Shown here in pieces: positions 4,590 through 16,377 of a stretch of 64,000 nucleotides of DNA; position 1 is the stretch's first letter, and the number at the start of each line of letters is the position of its first letter. This stretch comes from Janthinobacterium saanense. Lineage in GTDB: Bacteria; Pseudomonadota; Gammaproteobacteria; Burkholderiales; Burkholderiaceae_D. The notes below the pieces were generated by a model that worked only from the letters and a program-made list of their open reading frames with translations, did not search any database and had not been told where the DNA came from. The position numbers were made by a program, and so were the translations under genes. The stretch spans positions 1-64,000 of the forward strand of contig NZ_JACHCI010000001.1 of the NCBI RefSeq assembly GCF_014200675.1, in the 5' to 3' direction.

Positions 4590-5369
4590 TCAGGCAGCCA
4601 AGCGCTGGCACAAGTTTTTAACGACCCCAAACGCATAACGCGACGCCACTGTCTGCACAAAGCGCATGAAGTCGACGGCCGCTTCTTCATTGGCGTTGTC
4701 CGAGATCGTGCGCATGACGGTAAACGGCACACCCAGTTCAAAACACACTTGCGCCACGGCCGCGCCTTCCATTTCGACGGCCAGCAGATCGGGAAGATCC
4801 TGCTTGAGTTGCCGCAAATGCGCTGCGCTGCTGATGAACTGGTCACCGCTGGCAATCATGCCACGGTGCACCCTGGCGTGCTGTAAACCAAATCCTTCGA
4901 TTTCCAGGGCGCTGTCAGCGGGCTTCTCAGCCTGCTGACGCAAGAATTGCTCTGCGGCGCCTGCCAGTGCCTCACTGAGCACCAGATCGCTACCAAAGCG
5001 CTGTAAACCGGTCAGCGGCACTTCGAAGCGGGGAAACAGAGGGCTGGCATCCATATCGTGCTGCAACAACGATTCCGCCACCACGATATCGCCCACGTTC
5101 ACTTTGGGATCACCACTGCCGGCAACGCCCGTGAAGACGATGTGGGTAACTCCGTACTTTTCCACAAGGATAGAAGCTGTCATGGCTGCGGCAACCTTGC
5201 CTATACGCGACAGAACGCACACAGCGTCGATTTCCCACAGGGTTCCCAGGGTGTACTCACGCATGCCGTGCGAGTGGCTTACAGGCCCTTGCATGGCTTC
5301 TATCAGCCCCTGCTGCTCTTCGTGCAAAGCACTAATGATGCCTAAACGCATTTTTTTGCTTGAATTCAT
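4590..5369 (-). CDS. mtnN: 5'-methylthioadenosine / S-adenosylhomocysteine nucleosidase
   Basis: MTAN hydrolyses MTA and SAH to adenine plus the thioribose, clearing inhibitors of methylation and polyamine synthesis. Family motifs in order are LGIISALHEEQQGL at the N-terminus, TGVAGSGDPKVNVGDIVVAE, MIASGDQFI, VEMEGAAVAQVC (ribose-binding Met-Glu) and the catalytic-Asp motif RTISDNANEEA. Starting at the ATG at 5369 (MNSSKKMRLGIISA) gives 259 residues, slightly longer than the usual 230-250. The ATG at 5351 (MRLGIISA) is an alternative. The open frame runs on to 5495, but that part looks unlike protein and lacks a ribosome-binding site. The gene forms the left boundary of the candidate origin. 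Confidence 0.9.
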   Translation of the reverse strand: MNSSKKMRLGIISALHEEQQGLIEAMQGPVSHSHGMREYTLGTLWEIDAVCVLSRIGKVAAAMTASILVEKYGVTHIVFTGVAGSGDPKVNVGDIVVAESLLQHDMDASPLFPRFEVPLTGLQRFGSDLVLSEALAGAAEQFLRQQAEKPADSALEIEGFGLQHARVHRGMIASGDQFISSAAHLRQLKQDLPDLLAVEMEGAAVAQVCFELGVPFTVMRTISDNANEEAAVDFMRFVQTVASRYAFGVVKNLCQRLAA

Positions 5370-5470: not shown

Positions 5471-5695
5471 ATGTTTTAAATAAAGATGTATACATAAAAA
5501 TAGTAGTGATAGTAAACGACCATTTTTCTGTGGATAAGTCGGTATACCATCAAAAAATCATCCACTTAGCGTATAAAAAAGTCGCTGCATAAAGCCTGTA
5601 TCGATGGCGGCCATCTTTGGGATAAAAGTGCGCTTGTGGACAAAAGACGCGTTTTCCCACATCTCATCCTGTGGATATGCAGGCACTTATCCACA
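5471..5695 (-). repeat. Origin module 1
   Basis: From left to right: AT-rich tract 5471-5500 (containing GTATACATAAAA), triplets TAG TAG TGA TAG TAA at 5501-5515, then spacer, DnaA box 5529-5537, weak box-like TGTGGACAA 5635-5643, and boxes 5670-5678 and 5687-5695. The third triplet (TGA) is the only departure from the TAG/TAA pattern. Module length from first to last box is 167 bp. Confidence 0.75.
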
Positions 5696-5969
5696 TCAGC
5701 CATCAGGAAATCGCTTTTTTCATGCTCTGCCAGCAAGTTTTGACGCTATCCAGGTCTTCAGTGAGGGTAAGCCCCTGCGTTGAACAGCGTTGGCGCTCAA
5801 CGCTGACTACCTTGGGGCCAGTTTGTATTGTTGGTCTGGGCCTGCCTGGGATTCCTGCCAAACGGTTTTGCCGTGGGAAGTCATGCCGTCGTGGACGCTT
5901 TTTTTGGGAGGTTTTGGCATGCCGGGTGAAAGTATCCCCGCAGTTCGCGGTTTTTGATCGGTTTACAAT

Positions 5970-6180
5970 AGATCTATATATAAAAATAGTAGTAATAGTA
6001 AACGCGGTTTTTTCTGTGGATAAGTCTCTTTTTTTCAACAGGATCAAACGTTTACGCGAAAAATAAAGCCTGCATAATCGCTGTATCGTGTCAGGAGCAA
6101 AATTGTATAAAATAAGGTCCTGCGCATAACTTCGTGTTTACTCACAAGTCATCCTGTGGATATCAAGTGACTTATCCACA
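5970..6180 (-). repeat. Origin module 2 (most canonical copy)
   Basis: AT tract with GATCTATATATAAAAA, then five uninterrupted triplets TAG TAG TAA TAG TAA at 5987-6001, a spacer containing CGCGG, then DnaA box 6015-6023 and boxes 6155-6163 and 6172-6180. First to last box spans 166 bp. The offset from module 1 is 485-486 bp for all three boxes. Confidence 0.8.
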
Positions 6181-6398
6181 AACCTTCTGAAATCCCCCTT
6201 TTTCCCCTATATTTTCCTCACGCTGCTGGCTGGTGCCAGGCGGGACGGCTTCGTGCCGAACTTCGTGCTGAACTTTTAAAAACGGTTTAGCAGCGATGTG
6301 TCTGCTGTGTTGGCTTCGCGATTTTTTTTGATGGCTTGCTGTGCAAGTGCTGAACTGTAGAGCCAGGCAAAGCCGGCGATGTCGGGTTTACCTTAACA

Positions 6399-6609
6399 AG
6401 ATCGTATACAAGAATAGTAATAGTAGTTAACGCCGCAAGTTTCTGTGGATAAGTACGGATTTATCCTTGTAAACAATCGCTTGGGATTCGGATAAGCGCT
6501 GAGTAAGCGTTGTATGGGAAAAGGATGAATTCTGAACAAAAAAGCCATCCGAAAAAATTTTTCGTTTACGCACATTGTGTACTTGTGGATATCCATAGGC
6601 TTATCCACA
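6399..6609 (-). repeat. Origin module 3
   Basis: AT tract with ATCGTATACAAGAA, four triplets TAG TAA TAG TAG at 6415-6426, a spacer with CGCCGC, then DnaA box 6444-6452 and boxes 6584-6592 and 6601-6609. First to last box spans 166 bp. The offset from module 2 is exactly 429 bp for all three boxes. Confidence 0.75.
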
Positions 6610-6824
6610 GAAGAAGAGGGTACTTTTCAGCGTTTTTTACTGCTGCAAACGCCAGTTTTTAGTTGCTAACGAGGAAAATTAAGCTCGCCGTGTGCGGCGA
6701 CTGATGCTACTCTCGAGACGCTCACTTGTTGTTTAGTAGTAATGCATGGATGAATGAATACAGACTCTGATCGAAAGCGGTAGGGAGACAGACCGCGCGA
6801 TCCCTTCAAGGTATAGGAGCTTCA

Positions 6825-8450
6825 TTGGAATCTGCAGGCGAATACGACTACATCATCGTCGGTGGCGGCACGGCTGGTTGCGTGCTGGCCAATCGGCTGA
6901 CACGCGATCAAAACGTCAGCGTCTTGCTGGTGGAGGCGGGTGGCAAGGACGATTACGTCTGGATCCACATTCCCGTTGGCTATCTGCATTGCATCGGCAA
7001 TCCCCGCACCGACTGGCTGTATGCCACTGAAGCCGATGCAGGCCTGGGCGGCCGCAGCCTGAAGTATCCACGTGGCAAGGTGCTGGGTGGCAGTTCTTCG
7101 ATTAATGGCATGATTTATATGCGCGGCCAGGCCGGTGACTATGATCATTGGGCCGACTTGACGGACGATGTGTCCTGGCGCTGGGAACATGTCTTGCCGC
7201 TGTTTAAGCAAAGCGAGGATTATTACGGCGGCGCGTCGGAAAACCATGGTGTGGGCGGTGAATGGCGGGTAGAAAAACAGCGTTTATCGTGGGATATCCT
7301 GAATGCATTTCGCGATGCGGCGCAGCAAACCGACATTTCGAAAACCAGCGATTTCAATGGCGGCGACAATAGCGGCTGCGCGTATTTTGATGTGAATCAG
7401 CGCCGCGGCATCCGCTGGAATACCTCGAAAGCGTTTCTGAAACCGGCGTCGCGCCGGCCCAATCTGACCATCATGACCGGTTGCCACGTGGAACGGTTGC
7501 TGTTTAGCACCCTGGAAAGCGGCCCCCGTTGCACGGGCATCGTGTTTACGGGCGGCGGCACGCAATGGCAAGCCACGGCCAGGCGCGAAACTTTGCTCAC
7601 AGCTGGCGCCATCGGCTCGCCGCAATTGCTGCAATTGTCCGGCATCGGCCCGGCTGACTTGCTGCAACAACATGGCATCGTGCCGGTACACCTGTCCGCT
7701 GGCGTGGGCGCCAATCTGCAAGACCATTTGCAGCTGCGCATGGTGTTCAAGGTGCAGGGCGTGAAAACTCTGAACCAGGTAGCCAGCCGCTGGCTGGGCA
7801 AGATGCAGATCGGCTTGCAATATGCCTTGTTCCAGAGCGGGCCGATGTCGATGGCGCCATCGCAGCTGGGCGCGTTTACCAGGTCCGATCCGGGGCAGGC
7901 GACGCCGAATTTGCAATATCACGTGCAACCCTTGTCGCTCGACAAGTTTGGCGATCCCCTGCATGCGTTTCCCGCTTTCACGGCCAGCGTGTGCAATCTG
8001 CGGCCCACTTCGCGCGGGCAGGTCGCCATCGCCAGTGCCGACAGTTACGCTGCGCCAAAAATCACGCCCAATTACCTGAGCACGGCGCAAGATTTGAAAG
8101 TGGCGGCCGATGCCTTGCGCCTGACGCGCAGCATCGTGGCAGCGCCCGCCTTGAGCAGGTTTGCGCCGCAAGAATATCTGCCTGGCGTGCAATACCAGAC
8201 CGAGGAAGAACTGGCGCAAGCAGCCAGCCAGATCGGCACGACGATTTTTCACCCGGTCGGCACGTGCAGGATGGGCCTGGCCAGCGAGCCGATGTCCGTC
8301 GTCGACAGCCAGTTGCGCGTGATCGGCGTGGCTGGTTTGCGCGTCATCGATGCCTCCATCATGCCCTACATCACCTCGGGAAATACCAACTCCCCCACCG
8401 TGATGATCGCGGAAAAAGCGGCGTTAATGATACAGGCCGCCTGGAAATAA
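6825..8450 (+). CDS. GMC-family FAD oxidoreductase (choline/alcohol dehydrogenase-like)
   Basis: This 541-residue flavoprotein of the glucose-methanol-choline family oxidises an alcohol. Visible motifs are the Rossmann ADP-binding site YIIVGGGTAGCVLANRL near the N-terminus, GMC signature 1 (KVLGGSSSINGMIYMRG, about residues 84-100), GMC signature 2 (GAIGSPQLLQLSGIGP, about residues 262-277) and the C-terminal HPVGTCRMG and GNTNSPTVMIAEKAA that form the active-site His/Asn region. The start is a TTG at 6825, placed 5 nt after an AGGAG; no better ATG is nearby. The substrate cannot be read from sequence. A Liv-type transporter follows 130 bp downstream on its own likely promoter. Confidence 0.9.
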   Translation: MESAGEYDYIIVGGGTAGCVLANRLTRDQNVSVLLVEAGGKDDYVWIHIPVGYLHCIGNPRTDWLYATEADAGLGGRSLKYPRGKVLGGSSSINGMIYMRGQAGDYDHWADLTDDVSWRWEHVLPLFKQSEDYYGGASENHGVGGEWRVEKQRLSWDILNAFRDAAQQTDISKTSDFNGGDNSGCAYFDVNQRRGIRWNTSKAFLKPASRRPNLTIMTGCHVERLLFSTLESGPRCTGIVFTGGGTQWQATARRETLLTAGAIGSPQLLQLSGIGPADLLQQHGIVPVHLSAGVGANLQDHLQLRMVFKVQGVKTLNQVASRWLGKMQIGLQYALFQSGPMSMAPSQLGAFTRSDPGQATPNLQYHVQPLSLDKFGDPLHAFPAFTASVCNLRPTSRGQVAIASADSYAAPKITPNYLSTAQDLKVAADALRLTRSIVAAPALSRFAPQEYLPGVQYQTEEELAQAASQIGTTIFHPVGTCRMGLASEPMSVVDSQLRVIGVAGLRVIDASIMPYITSGNTNSPTVMIAEKAALMIQAAWK

Positions 8451-16361: not shown

Positions 16362-16377
16362 TGTTCCACGTGGAACA
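16362..16377. other. parS: parS site 3, perfect palindrome
   Basis: TGTTCCACGTGGAACA is a perfect 16-bp palindrome matching the chromosomal parS pattern. It lies between the divergent gdx riboswitch leader and the mnmG promoter region, 3.7 kb before parB. Confidence 0.88.

Follow-up and report, generated by a model that had tools for sequence, protein, structure and literature searches.

The intergenic region between mtnN and a GMC-family oxidoreductase gene of Janthinobacterium saanense, at 5484-6609 of the window (the whole 64,000-nucleotide stretch of DNA analysed), holds three tandem units in the same orientation, and this array is very probably the origin of the chromosome. Most descriptions of a bacterial origin give it a single unwinding site, and origins are usually sought beside the initiator gene dnaA. 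The model favoured here, which we regard as probable, proposes that the array is an origin made of three copies of an ancestral unit, each of which would be opened through DnaA and IHF, with the work shared among them.

Each unit follows the same order: an AT tract, five triplets, 13-14 bp, DnaA box 1 and an IHF-like site at +28, followed in the distal part by box 2 at +140 or +141 from box 1 and an inverted box 3 lying 17 bp further. Unit 1 (5484-5695, plus strand; match to the unit profile at 5476-5697, E 1.7e-43) has its AT tract at 5484-5500, triplets at 5501-5515, box 1 at 5529-5537 (minus strand), IHF-like site at 5557-5568, a TTTCCCACA element at 5653-5661, box 2 at 5670-5678 (minus) and box 3 at 5687-5695 (plus). 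In unit 2 (5970-6180, plus strand; profile match 5963-6182, E 3.1e-43) the AT tract spans 5970-5986, the triplets 5987-6001, box 1 6015-6023 (minus), the IHF-like site 6043-6054, a TTACTCACA element 6138-6146, box 2 6155-6163 (minus) and box 3 6172-6180 (plus). The corresponding parts of unit 3 (6398-6609, plus strand; profile match 6394-6611, E 1.2e-38) are the AT tract at 6398-6414, triplets at 6415-6429, box 1 at 6444-6452 (minus), IHF-like site at 6472-6483, TTACGCACA element at 6566-6574, box 2 at 6584-6592 (minus) and box 3 at 6601-6609 (plus). All three units share box 1, TGTGGATAA (starting at 5529, 6015 and 6444), box 2, TGTGGATAT, which has one mismatch to the consensus (5670, 6155 and 6584), and box 3, TTATCCACA (5687, 6172 and 6601). 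Unit 1 alone carries a tenth DnaA box, TTGTCCACA, with one mismatch (5635-5643, minus strand), which is kept in all 21 loci formed by the window and L002-L021. A sequence-only reading of this DNA had described nine boxes in three groups of one geometry, and this description holds, with 141, 140 and 140 bp from box 1 to box 2 and 17 bp from box 2 to box 3 in every unit, as does its placing of the triplet runs 28, 28 and 29 bp before box 1 (starts 5501, 5987 and 6415; gaps of 13, 13 and 14 bp). Its naming of the triplets as TAG or TAA does not hold for all of them, since unit 1 contains a TGA and unit 3 ends in TTA; the IHF-like site and the TTnnnCACA element of each unit were both absent from its list. 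The box 1-box 2 geometry has three matches in the window against none in 100 dinucleotide shuffles. The array is flanked on the left by mtnN (MTA/SAH nucleosidase; 4590-5351, minus strand) and on the right by the gene for the GMC-family, choline dehydrogenase-like oxidoreductase (6825-8450, plus strand). The listed mtnN open reading frame begins at 5495, but homology to the family starts only at its residue 49, and the array is therefore most likely intergenic.

The unit was followed through related loci with the GMC protein as bait, the best 80 of 423 relatives being kept to give, with the window, 81 loci. A strict box rule, allowing 134-151 bp between box 1 and box 2 and 10-25 bp between box 2 and box 3, returned 174 units spread over 71 of these loci; 171 of the units were cut out, the other three lying too near a locus end. 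Box 2 lies 140-143 bp from box 1 in all 171 units, and box 3 lies 17 bp from box 2 in all 148 units with a recognised box 3 (23 are without one), whereas the distance from unit to unit ranges from 284 to 3549 bp across loci; the spacing is thus fixed within the unit and free between units. When 43 of the 171 units are aligned, T recurs at every third base through the triplets and is invariant at alignment positions 28, 31, 34 and 37, and five T-phased triplets with a gap of 13-15 bp to box 1 are found in 150/171 units. The IHF-like pattern A[TA]CAN5TTR, drawn from what we take to be the IHF consensus, begins exactly at +28 from the start of box 1 in 161/171 units and would occur by chance about 0.01 times in each scan stretch, as estimated from the plus strand of the window; GTCA or CTCA stands at that position in the eight units inspected among the remaining ten. 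A gene for IHF-alpha is encoded. The element TT[ACT]NNCACA precedes box 2 in 167/171 units. The strict geometry is matched by 111 of 294 family genomes, and the same geometry read backwards has no match across the 294. In six loci (L040, L044, L047, L065, L066 and L079) an additional inverted box accompanies box 1 of the last unit at +17, in a mirror image of the distal box 2/box 3 pair; L047 and L065 show this in their middle unit as well.

The three copies have long been separate lineages, as judged by a quick tree of the 93 units of 31 loci with three units each (34 loci have three units by the strict rule and 39 by the profile). Position labels need four changes on this tree, against at least 37 (mean 43.8) in 100 within-locus shuffles. 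Two label changes, the minimum, suffice for a group of 26 loci from Janthinobacterium, Pseudoduganella, Rugamonas and their relatives (two of these loci titled Massilia), and likewise for five other Massilia loci; the deep branches between the Massilia and the Janthinobacterium triplet of units are weak. Because the units group by position and not by genome, the copies are ancient, and on this evidence they have kept their own identities without homogenisation. Among the most distant loci, however, same-position identity is scarcely above the identity between copies (in L022, 0.60-0.67 against 0.58-0.62). The proposal that the elements are under selection while the sequence between them has diverged is upheld over 20 of the 21 Janthinobacterium loci (L008 left out), where conservation in each copy reaches 0.98-1.00 in the triplets and 0.99-1.00 in the boxes, and 0.94-1.00 in the AT tract and triplet stretches together. 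The two spacers are poorly conserved at 0.74-0.75, the one after unit 1 (5696-5969) having a mean of 0.75 over 5700-5960 and the one after unit 2 (6181-6397) a mean of 0.74 over 6185-6390. The IHF-like stretch is conserved at 0.85-0.94 in these 20 loci, no better than the rest of the unit middle at 0.82-0.91.

For an oriC, a nearby parS is typical and adjacency to dnaA common, although neither trait is defining. The array offers the cluster of DnaA boxes with an AT-rich element that characterises an oriC, and it does not adjoin dnaA: in the complete genome LM6 the array occupies 354.9-356.1 kb, which is 354 kb from dnaA (0.7-2.1 kb). The cumulative GC-skew minimum of LM6 falls at 354.0 kb in a scan of 325-385 kb, about 1 kb from the array. 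Sampled in twenty 20-kb stretches, LM6 skew is negative from 3.7 Mb round to 345 kb, save for a single value of +0.014 at 120 kb; between 365 kb and 2.9 Mb it is positive, although close to zero at 1.2 Mb. In G115 a local skew minimum at 3.640 Mb compares with an array at 3.636 Mb, and samples on both sides of dnaA (3.999 Mb) are positive, with one contrary negative sample at 3.75 Mb; G079 has no clear switch at the array or at dnaA. A switch of strand composition at the array is therefore seen in two of three sampled genomes (LM6 and G115), and no sign change occurs around dnaA in the samples of those two. At E 0.01, the unit profile has no match in the dnaA stretch of LM6 (20 kb) or in that of the window's genome (4.4 kb). 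An origin next to dnaA, which the sequence-only reading had named as a result that would speak against it, was thus not found, given the remoteness of dnaA in LM6, the constant sign of the sampled skew around dnaA in LM6 and G115, and the lack of a unit match in these two dnaA stretches. In 14 of 15 genomes, every exact match to what is presumably the parS pattern lies at a distance of 6-17 kb from the array, whereas G027 has no exact match; this closeness holds whatever the distance between array and dnaA (19 kb to several hundred kb). The sole exact match in the 48-contig assembly of the window's genome is a parS-like site at 16362-16377, which lies directly upstream of the gene for a SugE-like SMR transporter.

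The three units differ in how their triplets compare with published DnaA-trios. The BUS program, as set out in the excerpted text of PMC8287927, calls for at least three NAN motifs whose run ends no more than 16 bp from a DnaA box. In the window, unit 2 passes cleanly with seven motifs and a gap of 13 bp, the gap of unit 3 (six motifs) is 1 bp too long at 17 bp, and unit 1 has two motifs at a gap of 13 bp and a three-motif run in another frame, at a gap of 5 bp, that satisfies the letter of the rule only. A looser rule, T[AGT][AG], had been applied first, and the published rule gave the less favourable count, with 57/171 units passing overall. In three-unit loci these are 28/34 middle, 5/31 first and 0/34 third units; in loci with two strict units they are 21/35 first and 3/35 second units, and single units give 0/2. 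The rule is unspecific, since 761 of 5000 random window positions also pass. By the published rule, canonical DnaA-trios thus depend on unit position, the middle unit usually having them and the third never, which suggests specialised roles of the units, and because the outcome differs by position the case for three equal unwinding elements is weakened. Units 1 and 3 are not assigned to the BUS/DnaA-trio class and may function like a BUS. Of the initial claim of three complete unwinding elements, then, three related origin units survive, but only unit 2 is clean by the trio rule.

In the mechanism that we propose, the array would be made up of three copies, all in one orientation, of an ancestral oriC unit that moved away from the neighbourhood of dnaA. 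DnaA would occupy box 1 and the box 2/box 3 pair of every unit, IHF would bend the DNA at its site 28 bp from box 1, the distal boxes would fold back, and a DnaA oligomer would extend from box 1 across the 13-15 bp spacer onto the triplets, upon which the AT tract would open for helicase loading. Selection would maintain the copies, each with its own identity. From the anatomy, spacing, conservation, position and ancestry of the units, all of them observed, we infer DnaA and IHF binding, the opening of each copy and a division of labour; the purpose of the three copies is the least certain part of the mechanism. Opening at each copy is favoured because the triplets are conserved in every copy, and the strict trio rule points to a main site at unit 2 with helpers. 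Given its canonical trios, unit 2 is the likeliest main opening site, and units 1 and 3 would on balance open as well, as cooperating or alternative sites.

That the three copies are a recent, functionless tandem duplication, or an artefact of assembly, is scarcely credible. The copies are indeed tandem and of one orientation, but those of the window are 57-63% identical to each other, against 76-94% for same-position copies in L002, L013 and L018, which refutes recent duplication; moreover, three copies are present in 21/21 loci from separate assemblies, and each is conserved by itself. It is also quite unlikely that the array serves as a DnaA-titration or regulatory locus while the true origin lies beside dnaA. 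Origins close to dnaA are common. In the portions consulted of the papers on Janthinobacterium sp. HH01 and H. seropedicae, the origin is placed by dnaA and skew (PMC3566124, PMC3093359); however, the LM6 and G115 samples have no skew switch at dnaA, parS-like sites adjoin the array, the dnaA stretches of LM6 and of the window's genome hold no profile match, and in some other families a unit of the array type is what adjoins dnaA.

A more serious alternative, to which we give something short of an even chance, accepts the array as the origin and proposes that opening is limited to a single copy, most probably unit 2, and that the others are origin-derived, DnaA-binding helpers or regulators that act by titration or by a datA/DARS-like control of the nucleotide state of DnaA. 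The trio rule, usually passed by middle units only (28/34 against 5/31 and 0/34), speaks for this, as does the existence of family genomes with fewer copies, and E. coli datA and DARS2 also pair DnaA boxes with IHF sites (PMC10380432, in excerpt). However, helpers would need no triplets or AT tracts, yet these are conserved at 0.94-1.00 in every copy, and the three-base T period runs through all aligned units; datA and DARS regulators in particular are characterised by the lack of an unwinding element, a set arrangement of boxes and an effect on the nucleotide state of DnaA, and the AT tract and triplets found in every copy here speak against such an identity. Possible too, though less likely than not, is an ancestral multi-unit origin composed of two or three anciently diverged, non-interchangeable oriC units whose work is divided by position, in which the middle unit would be the one with canonical trios and the flanking variants would open as well, load the second helicase or fire in different circumstances.

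Parts of the proposed origin of three shared-work copies can be recognised in known systems. The B. subtilis oriC BUS and its predicted relatives likewise have triplets beside a DnaA box with an AT tract beyond, and the spacer between box and triplets is 13-14 bp in the array against a published BUS peak of 10-13 bp (PMC8287927, excerpted text). Unlike the BUS, the array repeats this arrangement three times, each time as part of a larger unit that also has an IHF-like site and, distally, an inverted pair of boxes. As described in the same excerpts, the BUS program keeps the best-scoring candidate, more than 99% of genomes being left with one (PMC8287927), and repeated units would therefore be passed over. 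The left half of E. coli oriC, in which an AT-rich unwinding element, the R1 box, an IHF site and further boxes follow one another, resembles in this order each array unit with its IHF-like site, but it has one unwinding element, and its box number, spacing and triplets differ (PMC10380432, in excerpt). Bipartite and putative double origins (Gao 2015, PMC4403523) share with the array more than one DnaA-box cluster per chromosome, but their clusters are split by dnaA or lie 150-882 kb apart, with no repeat at one site; the second site of Ralstonia pickettii, 291 kb from dnaA (PMC4403523), might be kin. On chromosome 1 of Cupriavidus metallidurans CH34 the skew switch likewise lies away from dnaA, by about 90 kb, and adjoins three perfect DnaA boxes in 213 nt, although a repeated unit is not among the features described in the excerpted account (PMC2864759). 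Displacement of the origin from dnaA thus has a precedent in Cupriavidus. Among the matches listed in open-licence literature there is no description of a repeated complete origin unit.

The sequence-only reading had raised the possibility that copy number in the mtnN-GMC region varies across the family, and it does, from none to three per locus: 39 of the 81 loci have three units, 35 two, four one and three none. These counts drop profile hits covering fewer than 150 positions and, because the loci extend at most 5 kb upstream, are lower bounds; L055 is truncated shortly before the region, and L074 and L078 belong to Undibacterium. All of L002-L021 are titled Janthinobacterium; together with the window they have three units in 21/21 cases, and L024, a more distant metagenome record of that title, has two. 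The strict patterns undercount: of 27 genomes of the genus, among them the window's own, two (G230 and G282) fall below three copies by these patterns, and the profile recovers three units in both of these and in L008. At the level of genomes, the profile matches 109/116 in the family and 37/40 genera, with no match in 7 genomes, one in 31, two in 54, three in 22 and four in 2; overlapping matches inflate these counts, so that 78/116 genomes with at least two matches is an upper count. By these matches the array is not peculiar to the window's genome. A fourth profile match in that genome is no additional unit, for it overlies unit 2 in part, on the reverse strand. Pairs of units in opposite orientation occur upstream of the GMC gene in L056:1080-2387, L063:1138-2445, L075:1809-2441 and L080:2489-3314 (three Noviherbaspirillum and one Herminiimonas metagenome record) and likewise in L193:517-1822, with start-to-start distances of 0.4-1.1 kb over the five loci; G024 also has two opposed units. 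In L022:1245-3575 and L049:1694-3646 two units are separated by a gene identified by eye as GGDEF (diguanylate cyclase-like), so that the origin appears to be split by a gene. The family thus keeps two or three full units and supplies natural variants in number, spacing (284-3549 bp) and orientation, through which the choice between one opening and two for the two helicases, and the sharing of DnaA among competing units, become testable. The LM6 result further suggests that the dnaA-based origin given in the excerpted paper on Janthinobacterium sp. HH01 may be wrong for the genus, and the unit profile can help to locate displaced origins in Burkholderiales.

The unit itself is, by its profile matches, older than the family. 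Of 200 genomes of the order, 80, including 6 family members, are matched by a profile built only from family units, as are 60/109 genera; many of these matches are partial or weak. The strict pattern, found in 1 of 242 sampled non-family genomes, had suggested a trait of the family only, a view overturned by the profile matches across the order. Where dnaA was located, in 20 hand-picked non-family genomes, a profile match lies at most 200 bp after dnaA in 12 and elsewhere in 8, numbers from which no rate can be derived because many of the genomes were picked for a match near a contig start. Direct reading, with at least four triplets and a box of at most one mismatch, finds the triplet-box order in 4/7 dnaA-linked loci and in 9/16 loci looked at. 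Three dnaA-linked loci (G339, G479 and G358) are without that order by this rule, and in the dnaA-linked G332, G376, G521 and G518 the triplets are followed after 13 or 7 bp by a box and at +27 or +28 by an IHF-like site. Multi-unit origins may be more widespread in Burkholderiales. Weaker pairs of profile matches occur in other families of the order, in L187, L188, L189 and L190 (G432, G393, G502 and G501, respectively), those of G393 and G502 lying away from dnaA.
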